This document shows, one piece after another, positions 3,117-58,864 of a stretch of 64,000 bases of DNA. Positions within the stretch are counted from its first letter, which is position 1. Every line of letters starts with the position of its first letter. Below the pieces are notes generated by a model. The model made no database searches and was not told where the DNA came from. It saw nothing but the letters and a program-made list of their open reading frames with translations. The stretch is from Reyranella aquatilis (GTDB taxonomy: Bacteria > Pseudomonadota > Alphaproteobacteria > Reyranellales > Reyranellaceae), in NCBI RefSeq assembly GCF_020880995.1, contig NZ_JAJISD010000013.1, positions 124,001 to 188,000 on the forward strand, read 5' to 3'. Made by a program: the position numbers and the translations under genes.

Positions 3117-3221
3117 GGCTGAACTATTTGCCCCCAACTTTGCCGAGGTTCGGCTAACGTACCCACCGCCGAGCGTCAAGCGTGCCTGTGTGTTGCCACT
3201 TTCTGTCCGTAGTGGCGTGCG

Positions 3222-3249
3222 TTGCAGCATCCCTGCTACGGAATATAAT
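3222..3249 (+). promoter_or_regulatory. Putative sigma-70 promoter for surA-pdxA-rsmA
   Basis: TTGCAG at 3222-3227 and a perfect TATAAT at 3244-3249, spaced 16 bases apart, stand out in GC-rich DNA. Predicted transcription would start near 3256, just upstream of the ATG at 3278. This excludes the two earlier in-frame surA starts (3182 and 3251). Confidence 0.6.
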
Positions 3250-3277
3250 AATGCCCCTCTCAAGCTCCGTTGGTGAA

Positions 3278-4588: not shown

Positions 4589-4598
4589 TGTCGGCGCA

Positions 4599-5597
4599 AT
4601 GAGCACGACCGCGCCGCTCGCCGTGACAATGGGCGAGCCGGCCGGTGTCGGAGGCGAACTTAGCCTCAAGGCCTGGCAGGCGCGGCATTCGGGCGCCCGC
4701 CCTTTCTTCATCCTCGACGATCCGGATCGCCTCGCCGCGCTCGCGAGGCAGCTCGGGGTCGATGTACCCGTGCGGAGCATCGGCCGGCCAGAGGAAGCCG
4801 CCGCAGCGTTCCCCAGCGCGCTTCCGGTCCTGCCCGTCCCCCTCGCCGCGGCCGTGACGCCCGGCCGCCCAGACGTGGCGAACGCGCCCGCCACGATCGA
4901 AGCGATCGAGCGCGCGGTGCAGTTTGCCAAGGCCGGCACCATCGCCGGCATCGTCACCAACCCGATCCAGAAGAAGACGCTGCAGGATGCGGGTTTTAGG
5001 CATCCCGGCCACACCGAGTTCCTCGCCGAACTCGCGGGTGGCGTCGAGGTCGCCATGATGCTGGCCTGCCCGCAGCTTCGCGTCATCCCGGTAACCATCC
5101 ACCTGTCGCTGGCCGATGCGGTGAAGTCACTCGACGGCGAGCAGATCGTGCGCGCGGGCCGGATCGCCGCGCGGGGATTGCGCGACCTGTTCGGCATAGA
5201 ACATCCCCGGCTGGCGGTGGCGGCGCTCAACCCGCACGCAGGCGAACAGGGCGCGATGGGCGACGAGGAGCGCCTCATCATCGTTCCGGCCATCGAGGCG
5301 CTGCAGCGGGAAGGCATCGCCGCACGGGGGCCTGCCCCGGCCGATACGATGTTCCATGCGGCAGCGCGGCCCGCCTACGACGTCGCACTCTGCATGTATC
5401 ACGACCAGGCACTGATCCCGATCAAGACCATCGACTTCGCCGGCGGCGTCAACGTGACGCTCGGGCTGCCCTTCGTGCGGACCTCGCCCGATCATGGCAC
5501 GGCGCTCGACATCGCCGGCACCGGCCGCGCCGACCCGGCCAGCCTGCTGGCGGCGATCGACATGGCCGATGACATGGCACGGCGGCGCGGCCACTGA
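4599..5597 (+). CDS. pdxA: 4-hydroxythreonine-4-phosphate dehydrogenase
   Basis: A 332-residue enzyme, the normal length for PdxA. It oxidises 4-phosphohydroxy-L-threonine with NAD in the DXP-dependent pyridoxal phosphate pathway. Visible hallmarks are the N-terminal [12 protein letters not shown], the three metal-ligand histidine motifs [17 protein letters not shown] and MYHDQALIP, and the C-terminal [14 protein letters not shown]. The ATG at 4599 gives the standard N-terminus. The frame continues open upstream inside surA, but that part has no PdxA similarity. It is second in the surA operon, and its stop is one base before the rsmA start, so translational coupling is likely. Confidence 0.95.
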
Positions 5598-5598
5598 G

Positions 5599-6432
5599 AT
5601 GGACGGCGTCGAGGCCCTGCCGCCCCTCCGCGAGACCATCGCCGCGCACGGGTTCGATGCCCGCAAGCGCTTCGGCCAGCACTTCCTGCTCGACCTCAAT
5701 CTCACCCGCCGCATTGCGCGCGCGGCGGCGCCGCTGGACGATGGGACCGTGATCGAGGTCGGCCCGGGACCGGGCGGGCTGACGCGCGCCCTGCTGCTCG
5801 AAGGGGCGCGCCGGGTCGTTGCCATCGAACTGGACGGGCGGGCGTTCGGCCCGCTCCTCGAACTGCAGGCCGTGGCCAGCGGACGGCTGGAACTGGTGGA
5901 GGCCGACGCGCTGCGCCTCGAGCCGCGGGATCTCGGGCCCGCGCCGCGGCGGATCGTGGCCAACCTGCCCTACAACGTGTCGACGGCCCTGCTGGTGCAA
6001 TGGCTGCACGCAGCAACCGACATCGCCGACATGGTGCTGATGTTCCAGAAGGAGGTGGTCGATCGCCTCGTGGCGGCCCCCCGCACCAAGGACTACGGGC
6101 GTCTTTCCGTACTGGCCCAGCATGTCTGCGAGGTCCGCCGCCTGTTCGACGTCGCGCCAACCGCCTTCGTGCCACCGCCCAAGGTTACCTCGGCGGTGGC
6201 GCGCCTGACGCCGCGGCCGGCGGCCGACCGCTTGGCAGATCTGAGGCCGCTGGAGCGTGTCACGGCCGCGGCCTTCGGCCAGCGCCGCAAGATGCTGCGA
6301 GGGTCCCTGGCGGGCGTTTTTTCCGATCCTGTCACTATTCTGGAGGGGCTCGGCCTCAAGCCCACGGCGCGCGCCGAGGAACTGACCGTCGAAGACTTCG
6401 TGAAACTGGCAGGCCTCCTTGACAGTGAGTGA
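5599..6432 (+). CDS. rsmA: 16S rRNA (adenine1518/1519-N6)-dimethyltransferase
   Basis: A 277-residue KsgA/RsmA protein that dimethylates two adjacent adenines in the 3' hairpin of 16S rRNA using SAM. Seen are the N-terminal KRFGQHFLLD, the SAM motif VIEVGPGPGGLT, VVAIELDGRA, the catalytic NLPY motif (VANLPYNVST) and the C-terminal FGQRRKMLRGSL. It starts one base after pdxA stops. The last codons and stop overlap a 14-base perfect palindrome (6428-6441) that precedes the next gene, so the regulatory site of plsC seems to be embedded in the end of this gene. Confidence 0.95.
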   Translation: MDGVEALPPLRETIAAHGFDARKRFGQHFLLDLNLTRRIARAAAPLDDGTVIEVGPGPGGLTRALLLEGARRVVAIELDGRAFGPLLELQAVASGRLELVEADALRLEPRDLGPAPRRIVANLPYNVSTALLVQWLHAATDIADMVLMFQKEVVDRLVAAPRTKDYGRLSVLAQHVCEVRRLFDVAPTAFVPPPKVTSAVARLTPRPAADRLADLRPLERVTAAAFGQRRKMLRGSLAGVFSDPVTILEGLGLKPTARAEELTVEDFVKLAGLLDSE

Positions 6433-6441
6433 GTACTCACT
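6428..6441. promoter_or_regulatory. Perfect 14-bp palindrome, possible TetR-type operator
   Basis: AGTGAGTACTCACT reads the same on both strands. It straddles the rsmA stop codon and lies 12 bases before the acyltransferase ATG. Size and symmetry resemble TetR-family operators that control lipid genes. No TetR gene is in the window, so the regulator would act in trans (inference). Confidence 0.45.
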
Positions 6442-6453
6442 ATTATTGAGCCC

Positions 6454-7257
6454 ATGATCCGTTCGCTCGCCTTCAACCTCTATTTTTATCTGGGCACCCT
6501 GCTGGTGGCCGTGATCGGCATCCTGCTCGTTCCCATTCCCACACCGGTCCTGCTGCGCGGCCTGCTGTTCCACTGGGCTCGCGCCGTCGTCTGGGGCATG
6601 CGCTGGATCGGCGGCATGAGCATCGAATATCGGGGCCTGGAAAACCTGCCGACTCGGGGCCCGGTCCTGCTGGCCAACAAGCACCACAGCGAGAGCGACG
6701 GCATTCTGCTGGCTGCCCGCATCCGCGGTATCGCCTTCGTCGCGATGCAGGAACTCTTCCGTTACCCGCTGATCGGAACGATCCTCTATCGCCTGCAGAT
6801 GATCCGCGTCGACACGTGCGGCGGCGGCCGCGAGCGCGAGAATCTCGCCCAGTTCGCCAAGCGCGCCTACGACAGCGGCCGGCACATCGCGATCTATCCC
6901 GAGGGAAACCTGATGGCCCCGGGCGAACGCGAGCGCTACCGCTCCGGCATCTACTACCTCTATCGGGACCTCGACCTGCCGGTGACGCCCGTCGCCACTT
7001 CGGTGGGTCTGCTGTGGAATCGGCGTGACTGGCGCAAGAAGCCGGGCCCCGCCGCGATCGAGTTCCTGCCCGCCATCCCGACAGGCCTCGACAAGCAGAC
7101 CTTCATGCGCACGCTGGAAGATACGATCGAAACCGCCAGCGACCGCCTGATCGCGGAGTTCTCGGGTCGGCCCTACACGCCCAGCCAGCTGGTGCTACGC
7201 TCCCAGGGACAGACCGGCATCGGCATGCCGATCACCGCCCCTCGCGCAACGCCTTGA
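6454..7257 (+). CDS. 1-acyl-sn-glycerol-3-phosphate acyltransferase family protein (PlsC-like)
   Basis: A 267-residue membrane-anchored acyltransferase. An N-terminal hydrophobic segment spans about residues 8-40. The catalytic HX4D box is KHHSESD (His77, Asp82), and later IYPEGNLMAPGE matches the glycerophosphate-binding EGT/S box. The family transfers acyl groups to lysophosphatidate or related lysolipids at the inner membrane. The exact substrate is not provable here. It lies 21 bases after rsmA behind the AGTGAGTACTCACT palindrome, so it may be transcribed separately from the surA operon. Its 3' end overlaps the convergent gmk gene by 26 bases. Confidence 0.87.
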   Translation: MIRSLAFNLYFYLGTLLVAVIGILLVPIPTPVLLRGLLFHWARAVVWGMRWIGGMSIEYRGLENLPTRGPVLLANKHHSESDGILLAARIRGIAFVAMQELFRYPLIGTILYRLQMIRVDTCGGGRERENLAQFAKRAYDSGRHIAIYPEGNLMAPGERERYRSGIYYLYRDLDLPVTPVATSVGLLWNRRDWRKKPGPAAIEFLPAIPTGLDKQTFMRTLEDTIETASDRLIAEFSGRPYTPSQLVLRSQGQTGIGMPITAPRATP

Positions 7258-7879
7258 CGAAGGCCGAGAGGCCGACCTGACGCTCGCGCTTCAGCCGCTC
7301 GGCCGTCAGGATGGACTTCAGCTCCATCAGGCTGGTGGCGATGTCGCGGTTGATGATCTGGTAGTCGTACTCGGCCCAGTGGCTCATCTCGTCGGCGGCC
7401 TTGGCCATCCGCTTCTGCACCACTTCCATCGAATCCTGGGCGCGGGTGATCAGCCGGCGCTCGAGGTCGCGGGTCGACGGCGGCAGGATGAACACCGTCA
7501 CCAGGTCGCTGCCGGCCTTTTCCTTGAGTTGCTGGGTGCCCTGCCAGTCGATATCGAACAGCACGTCACGGCCGTCGATCAGCGCCGCTTCCACCGGTGC
7601 GGCGGGCGTGCCGTAGAAATGGTCGAATACGCGCGCGTGCTCCAGGAATTCGCCGCGCTCGATCATGCCGCGGAAGGTGGCGGTGTCGACGAAGTGATAG
7701 TCGACCCCGTCCTTCTCGCCGGAGCGGCGCGCGCGCGTGGTCGCCGAGACGCTGAGCTGGATCTGCTTGTCGTTGTCGAGGAGTTGCCGCGACAGGGTTG
7801 TCTTGCCCGCGCCCGACGGCGAGGACAGGACGAGCATCAGGCCGCGCCGCGTGATCGCGGCGGCATCCTCATTCGACAT
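7232..7879 (-). CDS. gmk: Guanylate kinase
   Basis: A 215-residue enzyme that phosphorylates GMP to GDP. The P-loop is SSPSGAGKTT near residues 19-28. GMP-binding motifs follow: SVSATTRARRSGE, VDYHFVD, FLEHARVFDHFYGTP and the Walker B-like VLFDIDWQGTQQL. Its start overlaps the end of yicC by 11 bases, the common yicC-gmk arrangement, so the two are probably co-transcribed and translationally coupled. It ends 26 bases inside the convergent acyltransferase gene. With guaA and guaB at the right end, the window carries three steps of guanine nucleotide synthesis. Confidence 0.95.
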   Translation of the reverse strand: MSNEDAAAITRRGLMLVLSSPSGAGKTTLSRQLLDNDKQIQLSVSATTRARRSGEKDGVDYHFVDTATFRGMIERGEFLEHARVFDHFYGTPAAPVEAALIDGRDVLFDIDWQGTQQLKEKAGSDLVTVFILPPSTRDLERRLITRAQDSMEVVQKRMAKAADEMSHWAEYDYQIINRDIATSLMELKSILTAERLKRERQVGLSAFVKALREGR

Positions 7880-8792
7880 TCTGGACCTGCTCCCGCATGC
7901 GCTCGACGGCGCCCTTCAGATCGATGCCGATGCGCGTCAGCTCGATGTCGGCAGACTTCGAGCAGAGCGTGTTGGCCTCGCGATTGAATTCCTGGCAGAG
8001 GAAATCGAACTTCCGGCCCACCGGGTTGTCGGCGCGGGCGTCGGCCAGCAGGGCGCGGGCCTGCGCGATGTGGGCGTTCAGCCGGTCCAGTTCCTCGCGC
8101 ACGTCGGCCTTGCCGACCAACAGCGCCACTTCCTGGGCGAAGCGCTCCTCGGAGAGGGCGGGCACGCGCCCCAGCAGTTCGGCGAGCTGCGCCTCGAAGC
8201 GGGCCCGAACCGTGCCGATCTGCGCCAGAGCCCGCTCGGTCGCGCGGCTGCACAGGGCCTCGATCTCCGCGACATGCCCGTCGATCACCGCGGCGAGTGC
8301 CTTGCCTTCCGCGGCCCGCGACACGACCAGCCCCTTGAGCGCCTCATCGAGGCTCGCCTGCAGCGCCTTGTCGAGGGTGGCCAGAGCCTCCTCGGTCTCC
8401 TGGCCCGCATCCTCCTCCTCGATGACGCCCCTGACGCGCAACAGGCCATCCGCCGACGGAGGCGCGGCACCGGTACTCTTGCGGACCTCCTCGACCAGGG
8501 TCGCAAGTTCAGCGAGCAGCGCTCGGTTTATGGCGAGCGGCTTGGTCTGGCGTTCGCTGGTGACGGTAAGCGTGAGCGAAACGTTGCCCCGCTTCATCCG
8601 TCCGCCGACCGCTGCGCGCGCGGGGTTCTCGAGGCGATCGAAGCCTGGCGGTACGCGGCAGCGGATTTCGAGGTTTCGCCCGTTGACGCTGCGCGCTTCC
8701 CATACCCAGTGCCGCCGGTCATCCGAACCCTGCGCCCGGGCGTATCCCGTCATGCTTGCAATCAAATTGCCCCCTGCCCCATTCTTGGGCAC
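7869..8792 (-). CDS. yicC: YicC family endoribonuclease-like protein
   Basis: About 307 residues. The signature N-terminus SMTGYARAQG and the C-terminal FDFLCQEFNREANTL...KSADIELTRIG with a final MREQVQNVE tail identify the YicC/YloC family; E. coli YicC is reported as a small-RNA-degrading endoribonuclease. The coiled middle is helix-rich. The start is uncertain. AAGGAG lies five bases before the GTG at 8792, but ATG 8795, TTG 8765 and ATG 8753 are in frame and the family often begins at or just before SMTG. It overlaps gmk downstream by 11 bases and is divergent from an SGNH-like gene 60 bases away. Confidence 0.9.
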   Translation of the reverse strand: MPKNGAGGNLIASMTGYARAQGSDDRRHWVWEARSVNGRNLEIRCRVPPGFDRLENPARAAVGGRMKRGNVSLTLTVTSERQTKPLAINRALLAELATLVEEVRKSTGAAPPSADGLLRVRGVIEEEDAGQETEEALATLDKALQASLDEALKGLVVSRAAEGKALAAVIDGHVAEIEALCSRATERALAQIGTVRARFEAQLAELLGRVPALSEERFAQEVALLVGKADVREELDRLNAHIAQARALLADARADNPVGRKFDFLCQEFNREANTLCSKSADIELTRIGIDLKGAVERMREQVQNVE

Positions 8793-41770: not shown

Positions 41771-43396
41771 TCAGCCCGGATGCAGGCCGGGCGCCTCCTG
41801 GCCCGTGCTGGCGACATACTCGGTATAGCCGCCGCCATACTGATGGACGCCCTCGGGCGTCAGTTCGAGGACGCGGTTGGAGAGCGCGGCCAGGAAGTGG
41901 CGATCGTGGGAGACGAACAGCATCGTGCCCTCGAACTGCGCCAGCGCCGCGACCAGCATTTCCTTGGTGGCCATGTCGAGATGGTTGGTCGGCTCGTCGA
42001 GCACCAGGAAGTTCGGCGGGTCGAACAGCATCTTGGCCATGACCAGCCGTGCCTTCTCGCCACCCGAGAGCACACGGCAGGGCTTCTCGACGTCATCGCC
42101 GGAGAAGCCGAAGCAGCCGGCCAACGACTTGAGCGCGCCGGTGCCCGCCTGCGGGAAGGAATGGTCGAGCGATTCGAACACCGTGTCGTCGCCGTCCAGC
42201 AGGTCCATCGAATGCTGGGCGAAGTAGCCCATCTTGACGCTTGCGCCGATCGCGACGCTGCCCTCGTCGGGCTCGGTGGCGCCGGCCACCAGCTTCAGCA
42301 GCGTCGACTTGCCCGCGCCGTTGGCGCCCAGCACGCACCAGCGTTCCAGCCGGCGCAGGCGCAGGTCGAGGCCCGAGTAGATCGACTGGCTGCCGTAGCC
42401 CTTGTGGACGTTGCGGAAGCTCACCACGTCCTCGCCCGAGCGCGGCGGCGTGCGGAACTCGAACATCACCGACTGGCGGCGGCGCGGCGGCTCGACCTTC
42501 TCGATCTTGTCGAGCTTCTTCACGCGGCTCTGCACCTGCGCGGCATGGGACGCGCGCGCCTTGAACCGCTCGATGAACTTCATCTCCTTGGCCAGCATCG
42601 CCTGCTGGCGCTCGAACTGCGCCTGACGCTGCTTTTCGCCGAGCGCCCGCTGCTGCTCGTAGAAGTCGAAGTTGCCCGAATAGGTGATCAGCGTGCCGCC
42701 GTCGATCTCGATGACCTTGCCGACGATGCGGTTCATGAACTCGCGGTCGTGGCTCGTCATCAGCAGCGCGCCGTCGTACTTCTTCAGGAAGTCCTCCAGC
42801 CAGATCAGGCTTTCGAGATCGAGATGGTTGGAGGGCTCGTCGAGCAGCATGCCGTCGGGCCGCATCAGCAGGATGCGGGCGAGCGCCACGCGCATCTTCC
42901 AGCCGCCCGAGAGCAGGCCCACGTCGCCGTCCATTCGCTCCTGGCTGAACGACAGCCCCGCCAGCACCTCGCGCGCGCGGGCGTCGAGCGCGTAGCCGTC
43001 CAGTTCCTCGAAGCGGCCCTGAACCTCGCCGTAGCGCTCGACCAGCGCATCCATGTTGTCGGCCTGGTCCGGATCGGCCATCGCCGCCTCCAGCCGGGCA
43101 ATCTCGACCGCCAGTTCGCTGACCGGGCCGACGCCGTCCATCACCGCGGCGACCGCGCTCATGCCCGACATCTCGCCGACATCCTGACTGAAATAGCCGA
43201 TGGTCATGCCGGGATCGATCGTCACCTGGCCGTCGTCGGGCTGCTCCTGGCCCGCGATCATGCGGAACAGCGTCGTCTTGCCCGCGCCGTTGGGCCCCAC
43301 GAGGCCCGCCTTCTCCCCCTTCTGGAGGCCCATCGAGGCGTCGATGAACAGGATCTGGTGGCCGTTCTGCTTGCTGATGTTATCGAGACGAATCAT
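41771..43396 (-). CDS. ABC-F family ATPase
   Basis: 541 residues with two ATPase domains and no membrane segments, so a ribosome-associated ABC-F protein. Domain 1: [42 protein letters not shown]. The linker (residues ~235-300) is charged and helical. Domain 2: GANGAGKSTLLKLV, VLSGGEKARLVMAKML, LVLDEPTNHLD. Members release stalled or antibiotic-blocked ribosomes. The ATG at 43396 gives the family N-terminus MIRLDNISK. A decayed copy of its 5' third plus upstream DNA lies at 51089-51497, and part of its upstream region recurs at 45279. Confidence 0.92.
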   Translation of the reverse strand: MIRLDNISKQNGHQILFIDASMGLQKGEKAGLVGPNGAGKTTLFRMIAGQEQPDDGQVTIDPGMTIGYFSQDVGEMSGMSAVAAVMDGVGPVSELAVEIARLEAAMADPDQADNMDALVERYGEVQGRFEELDGYALDARAREVLAGLSFSQERMDGDVGLLSGGWKMRVALARILLMRPDGMLLDEPSNHLDLESLIWLEDFLKKYDGALLMTSHDREFMNRIVGKVIEIDGGTLITYSGNFDFYEQQRALGEKQRQAQFERQQAMLAKEMKFIERFKARASHAAQVQSRVKKLDKIEKVEPPRRRQSVMFEFRTPPRSGEDVVSFRNVHKGYGSQSIYSGLDLRLRRLERWCVLGANGAGKSTLLKLVAGATEPDEGSVAIGASVKMGYFAQHSMDLLDGDDTVFESLDHSFPQAGTGALKSLAGCFGFSGDDVEKPCRVLSGGEKARLVMAKMLFDPPNFLVLDEPTNHLDMATKEMLVAALAQFEGTMLFVSHDRHFLAALSNRVLELTPEGVHQYGGGYTEYVASTGQEAPGLHPG

Positions 43397-43440
43397 GGCG
43401 CCCGTGCTGGCGGGAAAGCAGCCGCGATGCAAGCGCGGGC

Positions 43441-43467
43441 CGATGACGGTCTTGCGGCCGATTGTCC
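43441..43467 (+). repeat. 27-bp exact repeat, copy 1 (upstream of ABC-F)
   Basis: The 27 bases beginning CGATGACGGTCTTGCGGCC recur exactly at 45279-45305 in the same orientation. A degenerate form lies near 51471-51497 upstream of the ABC-F pseudogene. Confidence 0.8.
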
Positions 43468-43559
43468 TCTCTTTGCTCGCGCCGGTGGCCTCAACGACAC
43501 CTGCACCCAAGTGCGAGCCGCCTGGTGTGCGCGTCAGCCACCGGCTGCCTGTCTTCGGC

Positions 43560-47905: not shown

Positions 47906-48079
47906 TCAGGACGACGAAGGTATCGCCCGCCCCTTCCGCCGCAGATCGCCCTTGCAGCGTTCCGAGCAGGTCTTGACCTGGTCCCAGTCGCGCGCCCACT
48001 TCTTGCGCCAGGCGAAGGGGCGGCCGCAGGCGGCGCAGGTCTTCTCGGGCAGGGTCGACTTGGTGTAGCGCTTCGCCAT
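47906..48079 (-). CDS. DUF2256 small zinc-ribbon-like protein
   Basis: 57 residues. TCAACGRPFAWRKKWARDW and KTCSERC carry two CxxC/CxxxC-like pairs (TCAAC; CSERC) that likely bind zinc. DUF2256 proteins are commonly encoded next to cryptochrome/photolyase-related genes. The start overlaps the photolyase stop by one base (TGATG), so the two are translationally coupled. The function is unknown. Confidence 0.88.
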   Translation of the reverse strand: MAKRYTKSTLPEKTCAACGRPFAWRKKWARDWDQVKTCSERCKGDLRRKGRAIPSSS

Positions 48080-49608
48080 CACAGCGTGCCCAGAAACGCC
48101 GCCGCACTGTCGGCGATCCGCCCCTTCTCCACGTCGGCGAACTTGTCGTAGGTGCGGACCATCTGCGCCATGCGGGGATTGCGCCCGATCTTCTCGCGGT
48201 GCCTCGAAATGAAATCCCAGTAGAGCGCGTTGAAGGGACAGGCGCGCGGGCCCGTCCGCTGCTTCACCTCGTAGGCGCAGCCCCCGCAATAGTCCGACAT
48301 GCGATCGATATAGGCGCCGCTCGCGGCATAGGGCTTGGACGCCAGCAGGCCGCCGTCGGCGAACTGGCTCATGCCCACCGTGTTGGGCAGCTCGACCCAT
48401 TCGTAGGCGTCGGCATAGACCGCGAGATACCATTCGTGCAGCTCGTGCGGATCGATCCCCGCCAGCAGCGCGAAGTTGCCGGTGATCATCAGCCGCTGGA
48501 TATGGTGCGCGTAGGCCTGCTCCCTGGTCTGCGTCACCGCCGCCCGCACGCACGCCATTTCCGTCTCGCCCGTCCAGTAGAAGCCGGGCAACGGCCGCGT
48601 ATGGCCGAGGAAGTTGCTGCGCTCGTAGCCCGGCATCTTCAGCCAGTAGATCCCGCGGACATATTCGCGCCAGCCGATGATCTGGCGGATGAACCCTTCC
48701 GCCGCGTTCAGCGGCACCCGCCCCGCCCGCCACTCGATTTCGACCTGCCGGCAAACCTGCAGCGGATCGAGCAGGCCGCAGTTCAGGTAGGGCGCGATGA
48801 CGGCGTGATAGAGGAACGGCTCGCCCGCCAGCATGGCGTCCTGGTAGTCGCCGAACTTGGGCAGCCCCGTCTCCACGAAGGCCGTGAAGGCCGCCTCCGC
48901 GTCGGACCGCGTGACGGCAAACCGGAACGGCTCCAGGTCGCCGAAATGGTCGCCGAAGCGCGCCTCGACCAGCGCCAGCACCTCGCGCGTGATCGCATCG
49001 GGCGTCACCCCGCGCGGCCGCGGCATGAACAGGTCGGCCTTGGCGGGCTTGCGGTTCTCCGCATCGAAGTTCCAGCGCCCGCCCGCCGGCTGGTCGCCCT
49101 CCATCAGCAGCCCGGTGCGCCGGCGCATGTCGCGATAGAAATACTCCATGCGCAGCTGCTTGCGGCCCGCAGCCCAGGCGGCGAACGACGCGGGCGAACA
49201 CAGGAAGCGCTCGTCCGGCAGGATGTCCACGGGCAGCGAAAAGCGCGCCGCCCAGGACTCCTGCATCTGCCGCACGCGCCATTCGCCCGCTTCCGTGACC
49301 ACCACCCGCTCCGGCCGCAGCCGCTCGATCGCCGCGCCGAGCTGCTCCGTGAACGACCCGCGATTGTCGGGATCGTCCAGGGTCACATAGTCGACCGTCC
49401 AGCCCAGCCCGCGCAGTTCCGCCGCGAAATGGCGCATGGCCGAGAACAGGAAGGCGATCTTCTTCTTGTGATGCCGCACATAGCCCGCCTCGTCCGCCAG
49501 CTCCGCCATGAGCACGCGGTCCTGCGCCGGATCGCCCGCGGCAAGGCTGGTGAGGGTCGGCGTGAGCTGGTCGCCGAGGACGAGGATGAGGTTGCGGATG
49601 GCGGACAT
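48079..49608 (-). CDS. Cryptochrome/photolyase-related protein of the FeS-BCP ((6-4) photolyase PhrB-like) group
   Basis: 509 residues. It begins RNLILVLGDQLTP, the family signature, then MAELADEAGYVRHHKKKIAFLFSAMRHFA. The FAD-binding half has GWREYVRGIYWLKMPGYERSNFLG and HHIQRLMITGNFALLAGIDP. Cysteines in NCGLLDP, DYCGGCAYEV and RACPFNALYWDF match the four [4Fe-4S] ligands of PhrB. It repairs (6-4) photoproducts or senses light, using a lumazine antenna in known members. It is co-transcribed with a DUF2256 gene. A decayed copy of its 5' end lies at 50888-50982. Confidence 0.92.
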   Translation of the reverse strand: MSAIRNLILVLGDQLTPTLTSLAAGDPAQDRVLMAELADEAGYVRHHKKKIAFLFSAMRHFAAELRGLGWTVDYVTLDDPDNRGSFTEQLGAAIERLRPERVVVTEAGEWRVRQMQESWAARFSLPVDILPDERFLCSPASFAAWAAGRKQLRMEYFYRDMRRRTGLLMEGDQPAGGRWNFDAENRKPAKADLFMPRPRGVTPDAITREVLALVEARFGDHFGDLEPFRFAVTRSDAEAAFTAFVETGLPKFGDYQDAMLAGEPFLYHAVIAPYLNCGLLDPLQVCRQVEIEWRAGRVPLNAAEGFIRQIIGWREYVRGIYWLKMPGYERSNFLGHTRPLPGFYWTGETEMACVRAAVTQTREQAYAHHIQRLMITGNFALLAGIDPHELHEWYLAVYADAYEWVELPNTVGMSQFADGGLLASKPYAASGAYIDRMSDYCGGCAYEVKQRTGPRACPFNALYWDFISRHREKIGRNPRMAQMVRTYDKFADVEKGRIADSAAAFLGTL

Positions 49609-50887: not shown

Positions 50888-50982
50888 GCTCAGCTGCTCG
50901 CCGAGGACGAGGATGAGGTTGCCGATGGGCGGCATGCGAGCGCTGCAGACAGGCACGGCCAAAGCCCCTGCCCGGTTCACTG
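50888..50982 (-). pseudogene. Decayed copy of the photolyase 5' end and its upstream DNA
   Basis: Bases 50888-50982 align with 49563-49655. GCTCGCCGAGGACGAGGAT is shared, as is CCCCTGCCCGGTTCACTG against CCCTGCCCGGTTCACTG. On the minus strand the start still reads MPPIGNLILVLGEQL, close to MSAIRNLILVLGDQL of the intact gene, then similarity stops. It is a truncated, non-functional duplicate covering about 16 codons plus ~50 bases of leader. Confidence 0.75.
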
Positions 50983-51088: not shown

Positions 51089-51497
51089 CGCACGACGAGG
51101 GCGTCCATGTCGTCGGCCTCCCCCTCCAACCACTCGACGGCCAGCGTGCTCACCGGCCCGACGCCGTCCATAACTCCCGCGACCGCGCTCATGCCCCACA
51201 TCTCGCCGACGTCCTGGCTGAAATAGCCGATGGTCAGGCCGGGATCGATCGTCACCTGGCCGTCATCGGGCTGTTCCTGGCCCGAAATCACCCGGAAAAG
51301 CGTGGTCTTGCCGGCGCCATTGGGCCCGACCAGCCCCGCCTTCTCGCCCTTATGGTGCCCATCGACGCGTCGATGAACAGGATCTGATGGCCTTCTGCTT
51401 GCTGATGTTATCGAGACGAACCACGGGGGCTGTGCTGGCGGGAAAGACGCGGCAACGCAAGGCTCAGCCGGATCGCGCCGTTGCGGCTGATTGTGCC
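51089..51497 (-). pseudogene. Decayed copy of the ABC-F gene 5' third and leader
   Basis: The minus strand encodes [20 protein letters not shown]...[44 protein letters not shown], nearly the same as residues ~15-95 of the intact ABC-F protein (41771-43396). The initiator ATG is lost (ACCACG for ATCATG). There are one- or two-base deletions near 51357 and 51392 that break the frame, and the copy ends after about 110 codons. The leader is also copied (GTGCTGGCGGGAAAG; degenerate form of the 27-base repeat). Confidence 0.85.
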
Positions 51498-51545: not shown

Positions 51546-52967
51546 CTAGCAGCCATCATCTTCATCGAGCCAAAATACGGTACGCTCGACCTCGAAGTCG
51601 CTGTATTCAGTCTTGCGACGGCCCATTCGGATATACGCTAACCTTCGGGTACGAAGCTTCTTTTGCGCCAGAAACAATTGGAGGTCAGCAGTCCGCACGT
51701 CTGTTGCTCTGCCGATCCTGCTGCTGAGCATATCAGGTTTGGTTGGGCTCCAAGAAGTATTCCAGATCCTGGTAGCCGATGCATCCTGCCTAGAAACAGC
51801 GAGACCGATACCGTTATCCCGAAGTTCTACCTTGGCCTCGTGGTTGAACATTTCTGGTGACGCTACTTGGAGATGCGTTGGGAACAAGTCTATGTGCCAG
51901 CGCGCATACTCGCCCGGAGTCGCGACGACAGTCAGAGGATAAGGTGGCTTCGGGATGGATTTGGGTGGCCAGATAAGCACACTTTGAAAGTCGCGTGGAT
52001 CACTCACACGGAGCCAGAGGTGCTCCAGCGGCGACAGACCTTCACGATCTTCGGGAAGCGACCAACAGGCGCAACCGGCAACGAGATCGACTTCAATCTC
52101 TTTGAACTCGAGTTCAGAAATGTCGACGGCGCGCACCGACAACAGAGCGCGCCCGCTGGCTAACTGGCCTTCGGCACTCTTCCAAACCAAGTCTGAGATC
52201 GATGCAGGCGATAACGCTGAACTCGCCAGCCCCTGCGTCCAAGAAGGCCGTTCACCATAGACTAGTCTGGCCAACCCGCGATCTAGGGGGCAAATCTCCA
52301 AAGCGATACGTTCTGCGGCGCCCCGATCCAGTCCCCATGCATGAGCCGCATATGCAAGAGTACGCAGGAAAGCCGACAAATAGACTTCCCTTTGGCGCAA
52401 ATCGAAGTGTCCAATGCCTCGTTGATCCTCCCAACTGAACCAATGAGGACTCGATGACAATGGTTCAGCGACATGGCCTTGAAGCCATTGCCATTCATAT
52501 TCCCACCGAGCAAGGAACGGCAGGCCAGTTCTCTCTTGCAGGAATTCGAACGTGGACTGGAACGAAAGCGGGATAGCCTGCCCCATCTTCTTATGGAAAT
52601 AGGCAGCGATATGCGCGTTGATTCTTGGTGTGCCTTCGCCGAAACCGTAGCAGCTATTTGGCGAGCGATTGAATAAGCGCTGCATCAGCGTATCGCTAAG
52701 ATGCGAAGGAGCCCTTACGGCCGATACCACCGCGTTATAGTTAAAGTGCGAAGCAAGATCGAAAGTGTCGATGACCGAAAGGCCAATGATTACTTCACTT
52801 TCTAATCGCCGCTCCGATATCCAAGTAATGAGGCCTCGCGCAGCCTCAATGTCACCAGTATCTATCAGTTCTGCGAGCCGCCGCGCAGCTTCCCATCGCA
52901 CTTGAAAGACAGGCCAAAGCATCCGGTGGAGCAGGAGCTCGATCTCCGGCGGCGTCACGAGGCCCAT
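51546..52967 (-). CDS. Unrecognised 473-residue protein coupled to the STAND nuclease gene
   Basis: I do not recognise a family. The first ~110 residues look helical and HEAT-like ([42 protein letters not shown]). The middle is rich in Trp and aromatics ([23 protein letters not shown]). The last ~150 residues are strand-rich and basic ([21 protein letters not shown]). No signal peptide, membrane segment or P-loop is seen. The start overlaps the upstream STAND gene by 13 bases; a GTG nine bases later is possible. G+C is visibly lower than in the core genes. Coupling to the upstream gene suggests a shared complex or pathway, probably defence, as sensor, adaptor or regulator. Confidence 0.75.
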
Positions 52968-55900
52968 CCGAGTACCGGCAACGGCTGCTCTTTAGTCTCA
53001 GCTCGAAGTGTGCCGACCATCTTCTCCGCAATAGCCCTAGCGAGCTCTTTCTCTCCAACTTTCAGAAGCAGGTAGATGAGGCGACTAAGGCCCAGCACGA
53101 GCGGTTGATCTCGTCTTCGATCCGCTCTCGTTCTGGCAGTTTCCTGCACAAATTCACGCCAACGCTCCGGGTAATGTTCCGCGACTGCATCCAGTCTTGC
53201 GATCGCGTCGTCATGACTACTGTGCCAACGCTGCCAGCCATAATTTGCGCGATGCCCAACAACCAGCCACTTAAATGCCGCGCTACGCCCTTCCAGTTTG
53301 AGAGAAAGTCGAAACGCTTCATCATAAAGCTCAGAAAAATCCCGCAGCGCGTCATCAATTCTGGAAGCCTCCAGAGACCGAAGCAATTCGTGGCCTTGGC
53401 CCAAACAGGCCCAGTGGGAAAACCAGCGTTGAAGGATATTACGTTGGTTGAAAATTCCAGCCTCTTTGAGTGCTGAGACTAGTTCATTGAGCTTGTCAGG
53501 ACCAAAGCTAGATAAATCGAACTGCGGCTCCATTGACGAAGTAGATTCGGGTTTCTGCTTCTCAGTGTCGTCCACATTGGCTGGGCCGAGATAGCGTTTG
53601 ACGCGCGCAATGGCGATCAGCCCATCAGAGTCCTTTCCGCGATCTCTAGATGCCAACCAACGCTGCTCCGTCGGTTGAATAAAGGTCGATAGCAGAGCCT
53701 CGCGGCGCGGCCCAGGCGGAAGGGTCGACACAAGCTCAAGCAGTAGTTCGTTTGCGTAGCGCCACTCTTCGCAGTGGATTAAGTACCCATAGGCACGCGC
53801 GGCTTGCTGCGGCGCGTACCGCGCCAACAGCTTGTAGAACTCAATTTTGATGTGGTCGGTCTCATCACCGTCTGTGAATTCGGTAATTTGGTCAAGAATC
53901 GGTGCGAGGCTCAGCAATGTTTTGACAGCATCTGAATCGCCATGCTCGTGCAACAGCTCGAGTGTCGTCAGCACTTCGTATCCGAAGACGTCCTTTCTCC
54001 AACCGTATCCAATGAGGCCATTGGCGGCGCGCTGCAGAAAAACAGCTGCAGCTTGTGTCAACCCATGCTCACCGCAGAAGAGGCTAAGGCGAATCCAAAG
54101 TTCCGTTCGTTCAGCAAATTGCGTTACCCCTTGGTCCAGCTCTTTGAAAAGTAGATCAGCTAGCGCTTGAGCTCCGGCCTGCGTATGGAGACGCAACGGA
54201 CGCGTGCTGAAGGCATGCAGCCAGCCTTCATTCAACCAGAATGGTGATTCCGATGCTGTCGTTATGTCAATTTCATCGATGAAATTCTCACGAGCAACGG
54301 CAAGGCTGAGCACCTGGAGATCAATGCCGATGTCGAGTATTGCCTGGCGCAAGGCTTGGTAACGAGCGTGCACCTCATAGGACCCCTCAGGCGATACTGT
54401 TGGGTTAAGTCCTGCATAGAGCGCGGCCATCGTGGGTGGCTCACCGTACTCGCTCCATGCCTTCGCAACAGCCTCAGCCATATCGGCAAGATTTTCGAGT
54501 ACCGGCACTAACCAGGCTTGATCCGAGGATGCAGAAGGCTCGGCGACGACGGGCCGCACCTCGCCTTTCGCAAAAGCCGCGCAGAAGGCGCGAAAGAAAA
54601 AGGAGCTTAAGAGCGAACGCGTTTCCACATTGCCGCCACTCAGATCGCGTTCCTCGAAAAGAGGAGCGAGTTCCAGGGGCGTAGTTAGCGGCGGCGGCGC
54701 CCCTCCGAGGAGCAAAGAAAGCGCATGCCGTCGAGGATCCTCCACCACCTCTAGGCCGATGTTGAAAGGATCGAGACGCTCTAAGCAAGCGGCGGTGAAG
54801 ACTTCGGTGTTGAATTCCGGGCCGCTGGCAATGCCAGCAAGCTCCAGGACTTTCCTAGGCTGCTGCATTCGGAGGGCTTCACGGGCGAACGCTGTTAGGG
54901 GCGCATCGGGGTTCTGGAATTGCTGGCAAAACGCTACAAAGCGCGCACCGTCGTGCTTACTTAAATGTGCAATCACCTGACCGATCGAGTCAGGCAAATC
55001 CTGCGGCCAATTAAAGCTCCGTTTGGATAAGCGCTTTAAGCGACGGTTAAATTCGTCCACCGCCTGACGCGCAAGTCCCGTGCGTTCGCTGGGACTTGCG
55101 CGACGGAGCACCAGAGCCATCGAAGTCGTGTCAAGGTCAAGAAGGTCGGCTCTCAATTCGGCGAGAGGATAAAGATCGGCGGTGACCTCGACGGCCGCAG
55201 CAAGAAAGAGATCCCATCGGTCTGTTTGAAACTCTGCGCCATTCTGCACGCGTAACCGGAGAAGACGTAGTTCTAGTGTACGCGGTAGATCGAAGTGTAA
55301 AAACGCAGCCTCCTCAGCTGCTCTCAGGATTCGGCTGATCTGATCGATCGGATAGGCTGCGGCTAACGCGGCGAGAACCCAGGGCCGATCGGGAGCGTTT
55401 ACGAGCGAGACGTCGTCCCCAAGCTGCGCTTGCGTTAGCCATAGCCAAGCCCAGCGCCAATAAGGCGGAGCACTTTGACTTAGCCATGTCAGGATTTTTT
55501 CTCGGTGAGCGGCCAGTGCCGATGCACTGCCTGACTGCTCCTGCACGAAGGCGAACAAGCTACCATGGAACGGGTACACGCCTAAGTCGCGATGATTTAG
55601 CAAGTGATCAATACGGGCTAGGGCGTCAGCATCTCCGGGCTCTGCGAACAGTTGTCTAAGACTTAAGGGTGGCATTGCAAACAGGAGCGCTGCCAGGACA
55701 TGGAGAATATCCTGCCCTCGAGCACCAACTCTGGACCATAGTGCCGCATAGTAGAGACGGATGTCACCGCTCGGGCAGGATGGCAGCGCTTCGATGATCT
55801 CAACGGTTAGTGGGGCGCCTGTCCGAGCAAGATCCTCGAATGCATAAATCAGGTGAAGGGGGAGGCCGCCCGAGATCTCGAAGAAGGCGGCAGCGAGCGT

Positions 55901-57298
55901 CGCTCTCTCCCGGGAACGCACTTCAAGGTCTCGCGCAGCGAAGATCAGACGTCCGGCCACATCTTGCTCCTTGAGCCAGTGGCTAACTGCGTCCTGCGAC
56001 ATAAGGGGGAGCTCCATCCATGCCGCTCGCGGCGCGTGCTGAAGCAGTTTCACCGGCAGTTCTTCGTCGGGCGCAGGTTGCGTTCCAACTACTAGCGCGA
56101 CGCCTCGTGGAATCGGTAGTAGTTCGGCGAACAACTGCGCCATGTGCTCTTTCGATCGCCCTTCGCGCCAGACGTGGTCCAGTCCATCGATCACGATCAC
56201 GAGTCGCTTTCCAGCGTCGGCTTGGGCCTGGCCAGATGAGACAATTGCGCTGGAAAGATCATTAGGGTCATAGCTTGCTCCCGGGCTCTGGGCACGCAAC
56301 TGCGACGTCAAGGAGTTAGCGATCTCGTTGTAATGGAAGCGCCCGGCGCTCTTGTCAGCGAGGTCGAGAAAGTAATGATGCCGGATGACGATCAGGCCCT
56401 CGTCTGATAGCTCCTCGACACAATGGCTTAGAAATGTACTTTTTCCGCGCCCGGGTGGCCCGACAAGTACTGTGACGCCGTCCACTTCCGATATCTTTCG
56501 GAGAAAGCTATCGGCAAACTCAGCGTCTGGGGGCTGATAGCCGGCTGGTACTTCGAAGTCCTGAGGTAACGGGCGTGGGCGGCGCAGAGAGAGCACTTGC
56601 CGAAGATGTTCGTGAAGAATCCTCCCATCGGGTTCCGGCCGGTACTTGAGTGTAGCCCAGGACTCAACTGCGTCCCGGAACGAAAGCCAAGCCGACCCAT
56701 CGATGTCGAAGGCAACGTCGGAACGAAGACGATTCTCTAAATCCTCAAGGATTGGCTCGGAGTGGTGGAAGTCGAATACAGCGAAGAACGCTTCCGCGTC
56801 AGTTGTGCTTCCGATTTGCTTTACGATTTCTGCTTGGACCTCAGCATCTACGCGCCTGAAATCGATGCGCGAGCCGACCAAGCAAGCTGCGACCGCCGGA
56901 TCAGGGATGCGATCCGTCCGAAGGCCGGCACTCGCCAAGCCACCGGCAAGAGCGTGTCGACCCACAGTTTGTGACCACTTTCGAAGAAGTGACGTGCCTT
57001 TCGGCCGATGCGAGAGCAACCATGACCAATTCAAAGCAGTGGCTGCGGCGCTCGGATCTGGCGTGAACTTGACTTGTAAGAGCTCGAAGCGGCCATCTGG
57101 ACGACAGGCAACGACGTCATCGACTGCACCAAACTGCTTATCATCTGAGTCAAGTTCGACCCATTGGTACAGCGTCCGGTCTCTATAAAACCGGATCAGA
57201 ACTTCGATCGCGACGAGGTCTTGATAGCGAAAGCCGGCGCGAATAATTCCCGGTCGCTTATATCCGATCGCCGCCGAGGCCGAAGATCGCATAGTCAC
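52955..57298 (-). CDS. STAND NTPase with N-terminal Cap4/DUF4297-like nuclease domain
   Basis: 1447 residues, start GTG 57298 or ATG 57292. Residues ~20-230 fit a Cap4-type dsDNA endonuclease: GFRYQDLVAIEVL, VELDSDDKQFGAVDDVV (Asp60/Asp61) and FELLQVKF (Glu72, Gln75-x-Lys77) form a PD-(D/E)xK-like core. Residues ~270-450 are a P-loop NTPase with Walker A GPPGRGKST (Lys286) and Walker B VIVIDGLDHVW (Asp371), NACHT/STAND style. The remaining ~900 residues are helical, TPR-like and serve as the likely sensor. This architecture is that of Avs-type anti-phage proteins. It lies 15-21 bases after guaA in the same direction, with lower G+C than its neighbours. Confidence 0.85.
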   Translation of the reverse strand: MTMRSSASAAIGYKRPGIIRAGFRYQDLVAIEVLIRFYRDRTLYQWVELDSDDKQFGAVDDVVACRPDGRFELLQVKFTPDPSAAATALNWSWLLSHRPKGTSLLRKWSQTVGRHALAGGLASAGLRTDRIPDPAVAACLVGSRIDFRRVDAEVQAEIVKQIGSTTDAEAFFAVFDFHHSEPILEDLENRLRSDVAFDIDGSAWLSFRDAVESWATLKYRPEPDGRILHEHLRQVLSLRRPRPLPQDFEVPAGYQPPDAEFADSFLRKISEVDGVTVLVGPPGRGKSTFLSHCVEELSDEGLIVIRHHYFLDLADKSAGRFHYNEIANSLTSQLRAQSPGASYDPNDLSSAIVSSGQAQADAGKRLVIVIDGLDHVWREGRSKEHMAQLFAELLPIPRGVALVVGTQPAPDEELPVKLLQHAPRAAWMELPLMSQDAVSHWLKEQDVAGRLIFAARDLEVRSRERATLAAAFFEISGGLPLHLIYAFEDLARTGAPLTVEIIEALPSCPSGDIRLYYAALWSRVGARGQDILHVLAALLFAMPPLSLRQLFAEPGDADALARIDHLLNHRDLGVYPFHGSLFAFVQEQSGSASALAAHREKILTWLSQSAPPYWRWAWLWLTQAQLGDDVSLVNAPDRPWVLAALAAAYPIDQISRILRAAEEAAFLHFDLPRTLELRLLRLRVQNGAEFQTDRWDLFLAAAVEVTADLYPLAELRADLLDLDTTSMALVLRRASPSERTGLARQAVDEFNRRLKRLSKRSFNWPQDLPDSIGQVIAHLSKHDGARFVAFCQQFQNPDAPLTAFAREALRMQQPRKVLELAGIASGPEFNTEVFTAACLERLDPFNIGLEVVEDPRRHALSLLLGGAPPPLTTPLELAPLFEERDLSGGNVETRSLLSSFFFRAFCAAFAKGEVRPVVAEPSASSDQAWLVPVLENLADMAEAVAKAWSEYGEPPTMAALYAGLNPTVSPEGSYEVHARYQALRQAILDIGIDLQVLSLAVARENFIDEIDITTASESPFWLNEGWLHAFSTRPLRLHTQAGAQALADLLFKELDQGVTQFAERTELWIRLSLFCGEHGLTQAAAVFLQRAANGLIGYGWRKDVFGYEVLTTLELLHEHGDSDAVKTLLSLAPILDQITEFTDGDETDHIKIEFYKLLARYAPQQAARAYGYLIHCEEWRYANELLLELVSTLPPGPRREALLSTFIQPTEQRWLASRDRGKDSDGLIAIARVKRYLGPANVDDTEKQKPESTSSMEPQFDLSSFGPDKLNELVSALKEAGIFNQRNILQRWFSHWACLGQGHELLRSLEASRIDDALRDFSELYDEAFRLSLKLEGRSAAFKWLVVGHRANYGWQRWHSSHDDAIARLDAVAEHYPERWREFVQETARTRADRRRDQPLVLGLSRLIYLLLKVGEKELARAIAEKMVGTLRAETKEQPLPVLGWAS

Positions 57299-57313: not shown

Positions 57314-58864
57314 TCACTCCCACTCGATCGTGCCCGGCGGCTTGCTCGTGATGTCGTAGGTCACCCGGTTCACACCGCGGCATTCGTTGATGATGCGGTT
57401 GGCGACGCGGCCGAGGAAGGCGTGGTCGAAGGGGTAGTAGTCGGCGGTCATGCCGTCGGTCGAGGTGACGGCGCGCAGCGCGCAGGCCTGGTCGTAGGTG
57501 CGGCCGTCGCCCATCACGCCGACGGTGCGGACCGGTAGCAGCACGGCGAAGGCCTGCCAGATCTCGTCGTAGAGGCCGGCCTTGCGGATTTCGTCGAGAT
57601 AGACGGCGTCGACCTCGCGCAGCAGGTCGAGCTTCTCCTTGGTGATGTCGCCGGGGATGCGGATGGCGAGGCCCGGGCCCGGGAACGGATGGCGGTTCAC
57701 CAGGTCGGCCGGGAGGCCCAGCTCGCGGCCGAGCGCCCTCACCTCGTCCTTGAACAGCTCCCGGAGCGGCTCGACCAGCTTCATGTTCATGCGCGCCGGA
57801 AGGCCGCCGACATTGTGGTGGCTCTTGATCGTCACCGAAGGCCCGCCGGTGAAGGAGACCGATTCGATCACGTCGGGATAGAGCGTGCCCTGGGCCAGGA
57901 ATTCGGCGCCGCCGATCTTCTTGGCCTCGGCCTCGAACACGTCGATGAACAGCGCGCCGATCGTCTTGCGCTTCTTCTCCGGGTCGCTGACGCCGGCCAG
58001 CGCCTTCAGGAAGGTCTCCGAGGCGTCGGCGTGGATCAGCGGGATGTTGTAGTGGTCGCGGAACAGGCGGACGACCTGCTCGCCCTCGTCCTTGCGCAGC
58101 AGGCCGTGGTCGACGAACACGCACTGGAGCTGGTCGCCGATCGCCTCGTGCAGCAGCACGGCCACGACGCTGGAGTCGACTCCGCCGGAGAGGCCGCAGA
58201 TCACCTTGCCCTTGCCGACCTGGGCGCGGACCTGGGCGATGGCGCGTTCGCGGAACGCGGCCATGGTCCAGTCGCCTTTGGCGCCGGCGATGTTCAGCGC
58301 GAAGTTGCGCAGGAGCTTGGCGCCGTCGGGCGTGTGCATCACCTCGGGGTGGAACTGCACGCCGTAATAGCCGCGGCTCTCGTCGGCGATGGCGGCGAAG
58401 GGCGCGTTCTCGCTGGTGGCGACGACGGAGAAGCCGGCCGGCAGCTTGGTCACGCGGTCGCCGTGGCTCATCCAGACCTGCTTGCGGTCGCCGGGCTGCC
58501 AGACGCCCTCGAAGAGGCGGGTCGAGGCCTTGATCTCGACTTCGGCGCGGCCGAACTCGCGGTGATGGCCGCTCTCGACCGAGCCGCCCAGCTCCTTGGC
58601 CATGGTCTGCTCGCCGTAGCAGATGCCCAGCACCGGCACGTCGGCCTTGAAGATGGCGGGATGGGCGGCGGGCGACTGGCCCTCGGTCACCGAGGCCGGG
58701 CCGCCGGAGAGGATGATCCCCCGTGGATCGAACGCCTTGATCTTCGCGTCGTCGACGGACTGGAAGGGCAGGATTTCACAGTAAACCCCGGCTTCGCGCA
58801 CGCGGCGGGCGATCAGCTGGGTAACCTGGGAACCGAAATCGACGATCAGCAAACGGTCGGTCAT
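57314..58864 (-). CDS. guaA: GMP synthase (glutamine-hydrolysing)
   Basis: 516 residues. The amidotransferase half has [10 protein letters not shown] (Cys82 nucleophile) and [13 protein letters not shown] (His/Glu). The synthetase half has the PP-loop [29 protein letters not shown] and the C-terminal [27 protein letters not shown]. It aminates XMP to GMP with ATP and glutamine. guaB lies 4.5 kb upstream in the same orientation with rsmB between, an order I recall as common in alphaproteobacteria. The putative defence genes follow directly at its 3' end, a known integration site for genomic islands in other bacteria. Confidence 0.97.

Follow-up and report, generated by a model that had tools for sequence, protein, structure and literature searches.

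A two-gene locus behind guaA in Reyranella aquatilis encodes a probable two-chain antiphage receptor of the Avs kind

In two papers (PMC12931631, PMC12724215), the receptors Avs1 to Avs4 are described with nuclease effectors, of which Avs1 to Avs3 sense the large subunit of the phage terminase and Avs4 the portal protein. For Avs1 to Avs3, these sources describe terminase binding, an ATP-dependent oligomer, an activated DNA nuclease and protection against phages. The Avs proteins in the libraries and papers that we searched are single large proteins, and annotation models seek them as such. Here, we analyze two overlapping genes, A and B, in a stretch of 64,000 nucleotides from the alphaproteobacterium Reyranella aquatilis (contig NZ_JAJISD010000013.1, positions 124,001 to 188,000; hereafter the window). 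An earlier interpretation, made from the sequence of the window alone, had pointed to this two-gene block of low G+C content and proposed a candidate new antiphage system, and both open reading frames (ORFs) were found intact on the reverse strand, directly behind guaA. We conclude that A and B are very probably the two chains of one mobile antiphage receptor of the Avs kind, a STAND protein (signal transduction ATPase with numerous domains) resembling the nucleotide-binding, leucine-rich repeat (NLR) receptors, with a fold most similar to Avs3 and translated from coupled cistrons. The 473-residue protein B is best read as the C-terminal part of the same receptor as A, which is a single protein in some other bacteria. 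The pair had no name in the libraries and papers searched, as the sequence-only reading had supposed, but it is a divergent, split receptor of the Avs type rather than a new two-component system.

Protein A begins with a domain that adopts the fold of the Cap4 nuclease, in agreement with the PD-(D/E)xK-like N-terminus that had been proposed. Residues 19-238 superpose on Cap4 from Enterobacter cloacae (7yib) with a Z score of 16.8 and a root mean square deviation (rmsd) of 3.1 over 203 residues (VIA-align). The PADLOC endonuclease model "Effector" matches residues 16-136 with an expect value (E) of 2.6e-10; the match to Cap4_nuclease in Pfam is weak (E 0.015, under Pfam's cut-off). The residues named in advance as catalytic or nucleotide-binding (Asp60/61, Gln75, Lys77, Lys286, Asp371) are conserved in a 75-row alignment of the family. 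Position 50 is acidic (D or E) and D61 invariant in all 73 ungapped rows; at position 60, 71 of these rows have aspartate and two have glutamate. Q75 and K77 are kept in all 74 ungapped rows. The expected STAND P-loop ATPase was recovered as NACHT and AAA families in Pfam, with the Walker residues kept (Table 1).

The helical repeats are present in an AlphaFold2 model of residues 1-1200, which was computed from a 65-row alignment and has a mean predicted local distance difference test score (pLDDT) of 89.0 and a predicted template modeling score (pTM) of 0.85. The alignments for structure prediction contained 64 relatives; the duplicate locus L106 was dropped in addition to the interrupted loci listed below. 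In a Foldseek search of the Protein Data Bank (PDB), the best match to this model was SeAvs3 (8dgc, E 2.4e-17; next 5e-8), and the suggested Avs-like plan of A is borne out; MalT (8bob) was also among the matches. Residues 13-1192 align with residues 4-1243 of SeAvs3 (Z 16.9, VIA-align) at an rmsd of 37 A, which supports the order of the domains but not their exact shape.

No family had been recognized for protein B, and searches of sequence libraries named none: no match was found in Pfam, PADLOC, NCBIfam or PHROGs, and the search of PDB sequences returned only a fibronectin domain at E 1.4. The protein is not, however, an unrelated partner. Its AlphaFold2 model (pLDDT 88.9, pTM 0.90, 65-row alignment) has a single PDB entry below E 0.001 in Foldseek, 8dgc (E 9.8e-7; next E 0.36), which is the structure of SeAvs3 bound to the phage terminase. 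The whole of B, residues 1-473, superposes end to end on residues 1546-2084 of SeAvs3 (Z 10.1, 396 residues, rmsd 5.6, VIA-align), whereas the next-best superposition reaches Z 6.7 over 88 residues. From the superpositions of A and B it follows that the break between the chains lies where SeAvs3 is continuous, ahead of its last 540 residues. Protein A had seemed shorter than known Avs proteins because this C-terminal part is encoded on B. Two other identities for B were rejected: an Avs3b protein, since no Avs3b was found in the genome of the window and B superposes on Avs3 itself, and an unrelated toxin or antitoxin, given the fusion to A in other loci and the fold of the Avs3 C-terminus.

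Table 1. Features of the receptor locus, in window coordinates
Feature	Coordinates	Strand	Description
gene A	52955..57298	(-)	1447 aa; Cap4-type nuclease, STAND/NACHT NTPase, helical solenoid; putative first receptor chain
gene B	51546..52967	(-)	473 aa; putative C-terminal receptor chain
A stop/B start overlap	52955..52967	(-)	13 nt; conserved junction type
guaA (host gene)	57314..58864	(-)	stop 15 nt ahead of A start
Cap4-like PD-(D/E)xK nuclease domain	56585..57244	(-)	A 19-238; structure match to 7yib
nuclease motif D50...D60-D61...Q75-x-K77	57068..57151	(-)	conserved across family rows
NACHT/AAA NTPase core	55973..56482	(-)	A 273-442; PF13401 E 2.4e-8, PF05729 E 5e-8
Walker A GPPGRGKS	56438..56461	(-)	A 280-287; K286 and S287 kept in 75/75
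Walker B region ...DGLDHVWR	56165..56203	(-)	A 366-378; D371 and D374 kept in 75/75
helical repeat solenoid	52958..55501	(-)	about A 600-1447; model spans A 1-1200
B helical part	52161..52967	(-)	B 1-269; extends solenoid; model secondary structure
B beta-rich C-terminal part	51549..52160	(-)	B 270-473; most variable region of the receptor, mean identity 0.19

A search with a profile of A in the genomes of 84,980 species gave 336 pattern matches, of which 122 were confirmed as relatives; the counts of split and fused forms below cover the 80 loci that were kept. Gene B is the next gene, nearly always overlapping A, in 50 of these loci, and it is fused to A in 22, of which 19 are intact (about 1,900-1,960 residues) and three are interrupted (L071, L091, L127). 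The remaining eight lie at contig ends (5) or have a truncated A (3). The pair thus recurs across genomes, as the search of gene neighborhoods proposed with the sequence-only reading was meant to establish. Most relatives are from Pseudomonadota, with further phylum labels including Gemmatimonadota, Latescibacterota, Nitrospirota, Chloroflexota, Verrucomicrobiota, Bacillota and Campylobacterota, among others. Single taxon labels need care, because many of the genomes are metagenome bins and a copy labeled "Micrarchaeota" is nearly identical to one from Chloroflexi.

Among plasmid records, tblastn matched B in 16 and A in 44, and all 16 records with B also matched A. A single gene of 1907-1922 codons was found in Klebsiella pneumoniae STIN_94, Serratia pPM120-2 and Pseudoalteromonas carrageenovora, and 4 of 5,426 Escherichia coli genomes carry a fused gene that is nearly identical. 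Two genes are present in Cupriavidus pMOL28, Pseudomonas aeruginosa pF061_1, Azonexus, Roseibium and another K. pneumoniae. Searches with B were less productive: its profile gave four matches in a draw of 398 genomes from the phylum of the window, one of them weak and one the genome of the window itself, while scans with the single B protein yielded 21 pattern matches but no confirmed relative in the genome contigs, and only its own copy in 385 genomes of the class.

In total, 83 loci were classed as split or fused: 72 from genomes, nine from plasmids or E. coli, one from a viral contig and the window. We inferred a tree from 75 of these (51 split, 24 fused), leaving out the interrupted loci L062, L071, L083, L086, L091, L103, L104 and L127. 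The tree, made by a quick method and with several long branches, implies at least five changes between the split and fused states. The pairwise identities of A and B are strongly correlated (r 0.97 over 2775 non-independent pairs), and sensor swapping is therefore not seen. The mean pairwise identity is 0.38-0.41 in the nuclease and NTPase (nucleoside triphosphatase), 0.24 in the solenoid, 0.28 in the helical part of B and 0.19 in its beta-rich part, as computed with a region numbering that is four residues off. A drop of identity towards the far end is the pattern expected from contact with fast-changing phage targets and could have arisen in this way, or else by relaxed constraint.

Some of the relatives are unusual. 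In L127, from a Methylococcaceae bin (2083-7886), the receptor is broken elsewhere, into A 1-1058 and a second piece with A 1058-1467 and B; this is either a second split site or an assembly frameshift. The putative viral contig L141 from IMG/VR carries a fused receptor next to what appear by eye to be a serine recombinase, an XRE-type regulator and a metallopeptidase-like gene, and may be a mobile element or prophage. Degraded copies lie near transposase genes on Moraxella and Piscirickettsia plasmids (L007, L011, L014), with B located about 7 kb away from the broken A in L011.

The sequence-only reading had noted that B overlaps the 3' end of A by 13 bases and that the two are probably made together. 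We surveyed the junction in 53 of 56 split loci (L086, L104 and L106 were left out), with the search for B starts confined to the interval between 25 nt upstream and 6 nt downstream of the stop codon of A; no start was found in L058. B overlaps the A stop in 51 of the 52 loci with a start placed, by 1-20 nt and most commonly by 4, 13 or 1 nt. Of the 52, 48 share one relative frame and 47 have ATG as the start codon of B. A motif like the Shine-Dalgarno (SD) sequence precedes the B start in 23 of 52 loci (44%), as compared to 16% of sampled internal positions, and by the same test no such motif was found at the B start of the window. This conserved, overlapping junction fits termination-reinitiation, by which the two chains would be made together. 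In two plasmid records that label B as a "multidrug DMT transporter permease" (L005:12506-13882, L009:10473-11849), its annotated start is 66 nt downstream of the ATG in the overlap with A.

We compared the family to four full-length Avs3a relatives with hhalign. They came from a search of 398 genomes with the NCBIfam model for Avs3a (NF041816, 2083 positions, cut-off 2800 bits), in which relatives were found in six genomes, the best at 2748 bits and none above the cut-off. With the window sequence as master, the family aligned to the Avs3a set with a probability of 98.5 (E 3.1e-15, 13% identity) over 1752 columns, from row positions 14-1904 to positions 43-2078 of Avs3a, and hence through both chains. 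The NTPase alone gave a probability of 89 (E 2e-6). B alone gave a probability of 75 against the whole Avs3a proteins and of 86.6 (E 4.5e-6) against their C-terminal part, with a score of 53.7 as compared to at most 17.2 in 20 column shuffles. The likeness to Avs3 extends to a Cap4-type nuclease, a STAND NTPase, a long helical solenoid and a beta-rich C-terminus in the same order, with SeAvs3 as the best PDB fold match for both chains.

There are also clear differences. The receptor is about 1,920 residues long, as compared to 2,083, and consists of two chains in most members instead of one chain of about 2,080 residues. The genome of the window gave no match to the model of the Avs3b companion (NF041817, 211 positions) at E up to 10, and the pair is not accompanied by a conserved third gene. 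The family lacks three features of Avs3, namely a match to the curated model, the single chain and the Avs3b companion, and is therefore a variant form, though one that probably works like an Avs receptor.

The NTPase points in another direction. In PADLOC-DB 2.0.0, none of the Avs models matches the pair or three fused relatives at full length, and the sole Avs model matched by the window is Avs1b, in the NTPase region of A only (208-530 of 1924 positions); the same holds for one of the three fused relatives. The NCBIfam model for Avs1b (NF041810) matches all three fused relatives at 24.9-29.3 bits (cut-off 1500), again in the NTPase region only, and did not match A of the window. The Avs1b comparison was made with a single protein (L183, 1,919 residues), found in 1 of 396 genomes. 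The likeness lies in the NTPase region and in a similar length, whereas nothing aligns outside the NTPase, the nuclease and B included, and B scores 19.3 against Avs1b with shuffles of up to 20.3. Furthermore, NCBIfam calls Avs1b a protease, while A begins with a Cap4-type nuclease. These comparisons indicate that the pair encodes a receptor of the Avs kind with an Avs3-like nuclease fold and C-terminus and an Avs1-like NTPase, outside the types as they are currently modeled.

Several results weigh against assigning the pair to an antiphage receptor with an Avs3-like fold. NF041816 did not match A or B of the window at E up to 1, nor three fused relatives; the fused relative in genome G420 was also unmatched, with one hit at E 0.19 elsewhere in that genome. 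Among PDB sequences, SeAvs3 was missed by the A profile at E 0.1 and by the B profile at E 10. The first hhalign run against the four Avs3a proteins (probability 98.1, E 1.4e-13, 1123 columns) ended before B. The nuclease (probability 8) and the solenoid (probability 4) are weak when aligned alone, though placed as expected, and B reaches only E 0.0011 to 0.15 against single Avs3a proteins. With an identity of about 13%, the relation to Avs3 is visible at the profile level only. The superposition of A ties SeAvs3 (Z 16.9) with Cap4 alone (Z 16.8), and the first rank of SeAvs3 also reflects which Avs structures are available. The NTPase aligns much better with Avs1b (E 3e-13, about 300 columns) than with the four single Avs3a proteins (E 1.5e-6 to 0.18), and the label "Avs3-like" therefore rests on the nuclease and the C-terminus. 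As to the surroundings, the neighbors of the pair in the window are core genes and fragments and not an evident defense island; a PADLOC scan of its ten neighbors gave generic look-alikes and no specific defense match. Among 75 genomes of its own family, only that of the window was found to have the pair.

The most serious competitor accepts an Avs-type receptor but places it outside the Avs3 line, as a separate type with an Avs1-side NTPase and an Avs3-like nuclease and C-terminus. The NTPase alignments speak for this, as does Avs1b being the sole Avs model matched (in PADLOC by A of the window and one of three fused relatives, in NCBIfam by all three), while the match of the nuclease fold and the C-terminus to SeAvs3 and the failure of anything beyond the NTPase to align with the one Avs1b protein compared argue for a tie to Avs3. 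We regard this placement as a substantial possibility, somewhat short of an even chance. That B is instead a separate regulatory or sensor subunit acting independently of A, such as an inhibitor, an adaptor or an exchangeable sensor, is unlikely. It is a separate polypeptide in 50 of the 80 loci, and its beta-rich part is the most variable, as expected if it were swappable, but it is fused to A in 22 loci, all of it superposes on the C-terminus of the single-chain SeAvs3, and its identities between loci rise and fall with those of A. The pair might also sense something other than phages, such as plasmid entry, DNA damage or a regulatory signal. STAND ATPases include transcription regulators, and MalT was among the structure matches of A. 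The Avs-type architecture, the Cap4 nuclease, the mobile context and the defense genes around relatives make a trigger of this sort quite improbable.

The junction itself invites two further readings. If a programmed -1 frameshift linked B to A in a fraction of the translation products, fused and split forms would both be made, and B would be expected in one relative frame, as it is in 48 of the 52 split loci. However, stop-start overlaps such as ATGA and TGATG yield that frame by themselves, four of the 52 use the other frame, SD-like motifs are commoner before B starts than internally, and inspection by eye of the window junction, the only one examined in this way, revealed no slippery heptamer; such a mechanism is very improbable. 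Even less can be said for the window copy as a dying, frameshifted single-gene receptor in which the split reflects damage or an assembly error, which we consider extremely improbable. Fused homologs do exist, the fused L120 is nested in a split clade, and L127 is broken at another place, but L120 and its split neighbor L110 differ all along the junction, as judged by eye, and not by one base, and conserved residues are kept in both halves of the receptor. Fifty genome loci, drawn from several phyla, share this junction, and local damage as the origin of the split was rejected on the grounds of this recurrence and of the conserved overlap.

For the preferred reading, two chains of one Avs-type receptor, a course of events can be proposed by analogy with the described Avs proteins. 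Chain A would provide the DNA nuclease of the Cap4 type, an ATP switch of the NACHT type and the greater part of the helical solenoid, and chain B the final repeats of the solenoid together with the beta-rich C-terminus. The two would associate and complete the solenoid, and the finished C-terminal arm would bind a conserved phage protein made during infection. The large subunit of the phage terminase has close to an even chance of being this trigger. Binding would lead to ATP-dependent oligomerization, which may bring the nuclease domains together, and the activated nucleases would then cleave DNA and end the infection, with the death of the cell as the probable price. An antiphage role of the pair is likely, and oligomerization, nuclease activation and cell death are assigned to it on the model of its relatives.

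Other defense systems share parts with the pair. Cap4, the effector of the cyclic oligonucleotide-based antiphage signaling system CBASS (7yib, 7yia), has the same nuclease fold, and its D...QxK motif is conserved in the A family; no SAVED domain was found in A by Pfam, and a NACHT NTPase follows the nuclease instead. The PADLOC model for LmuA of Lamassu matches A 4-110 (E 3.3e-6), which reflects the shared Cap4-type nuclease, but no LmuB model matched B or the ten neighboring ORFs. Most bNACHT proteins are about 900 residues long with a short C-terminal sensor, and the pair is set beside them here by description. The likeness lies in a NACHT-type STAND NTPase, as in bNACHT25 (PMC12169576). 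Overlap with PD-(D/E)XK or NTPase systems of DefensePredictor (PMC13092281) is possible. In the open-access literature searched, we found no description of a two-gene receptor of the Avs type.

The foreign composition of the block, which had been noted in the sequence-only reading, was confirmed by measurement. The G+C content is 0.564 in A and 0.546 in B, as compared to 0.664-0.737 in the ten neighboring ORFs measured, and at third codon positions it is 0.574 and 0.568, as compared to 0.864-0.969. The codon-usage distance is 1.85 for A and 2.01 for B but 0.58-1.26 for the neighbors, which makes the pair the most distant of the 12 ORFs compared. Both genes are uninterrupted and align nearly end to end with the family profiles (A, model positions 3-1464; B, 2-478). 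The start of A is placed at the GTG at 57298; an ATG two codons on (57292) is equally possible.

To assess the gene context of the relatives, we scanned random samples of flanking ORFs (128 of 258) and control ORFs (128 of 305) with PADLOC. The controls were from 20 regions of other genomes in the phylum of the window, while the flanks were from several phyla, and the control region L158 lies about 30 kb from a family member on the same contig. At E 1e-10, 251 models matched the flanks and three the controls; these are counts of models, many of them redundant, and no model matched more than four flanking ORFs. The three control models were mad3 (5 ORFs), mad8 (2) and AriA (1). Raw PADLOC hits overcount defense genes, because the models for AriA, PtuA, AbiLi, NsnB, mad3 and mad8 match an ordinary ABC-F gene in the window (41771-43510; AriA 9e-13, mad3 2e-46). 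The solid signal in the flanks is hence GajA (best E 3e-253) and GajB, the clear defense neighbors of relatives, along with other strong hits. Annotated relatives have neighbors such as tyrosine-recombinase modules, a reverse transcriptase with a SLATT protein, and an abortive-infection protein. A conserved third component was ruled out, since any neighbor within 3.5 kb of the pair recurs in at most 4 of 82 loci.

The site behind guaA varies within the genus. In the close relative G392, DUF808-like and photolyase-like genes follow guaA without the pair, and B was absent from G392 and G386 in a profile search. Remnants of the guaA 3' end are found away from guaA in G392 (150 bp, L045:3439-3588) and in G386 (L054:12447-12540), and these resemble the leftovers of integrative elements. 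The site may be an integration hotspot in the genus. In the window, no second copy of the guaA 3' end was found with up to three mismatches over 21 bases, and neither an integrase nor a pair of att sites was identified for the insert in a search for att sites that covered the guaA end only.

Fragments of other genes lie beside the insert. Positions 51133-51461 hold a 5' fragment of an ABC-F ATPase gene that is 86% identical to 43103-43433 of the intact copy, about 8.03 kb off, and an intact ABC-F gene lies within about 9 kb of guaA in G397, G404 and G406 and adjoins guaA in G397. Similarly, about 89 bp at 50892-50980 resemble the 5' end of the photolyase-like gene (48079-49608); the fragment and this gene share their orientation and are separated by the DUF808-like gene.

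Neither PADLOC-DB 2.0.0 nor NCBIfam 20.0 contains a full-length model for the clade described here, and this branch of the Avs receptors is missed by standard models; in plasmid records, B is labeled "hypothetical protein" or "multidrug DMT transporter permease". We tentatively suggest that the clade may represent an obligate two-chain NLR and perhaps a separate Avs type, which combines an Avs1-like NTPase with a Cap4 nuclease, an Avs3-like C-terminus and a sensing subunit that is usually separate, co-translated and joined to the solenoid non-covalently between two helical repeats. The split form persists in several phyla. On this view, it may serve regulation, through stoichiometry or the licensing of assembly, or help the sensor to evolve, and something other than the terminase recognized by known Avs3 proteins may act as the trigger. 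Naturally split receptors offer a route to map the phage-sensing part and to swap sensors between receptors, and they let one ask how a STAND switch works with its sensing end as a separate subunit.

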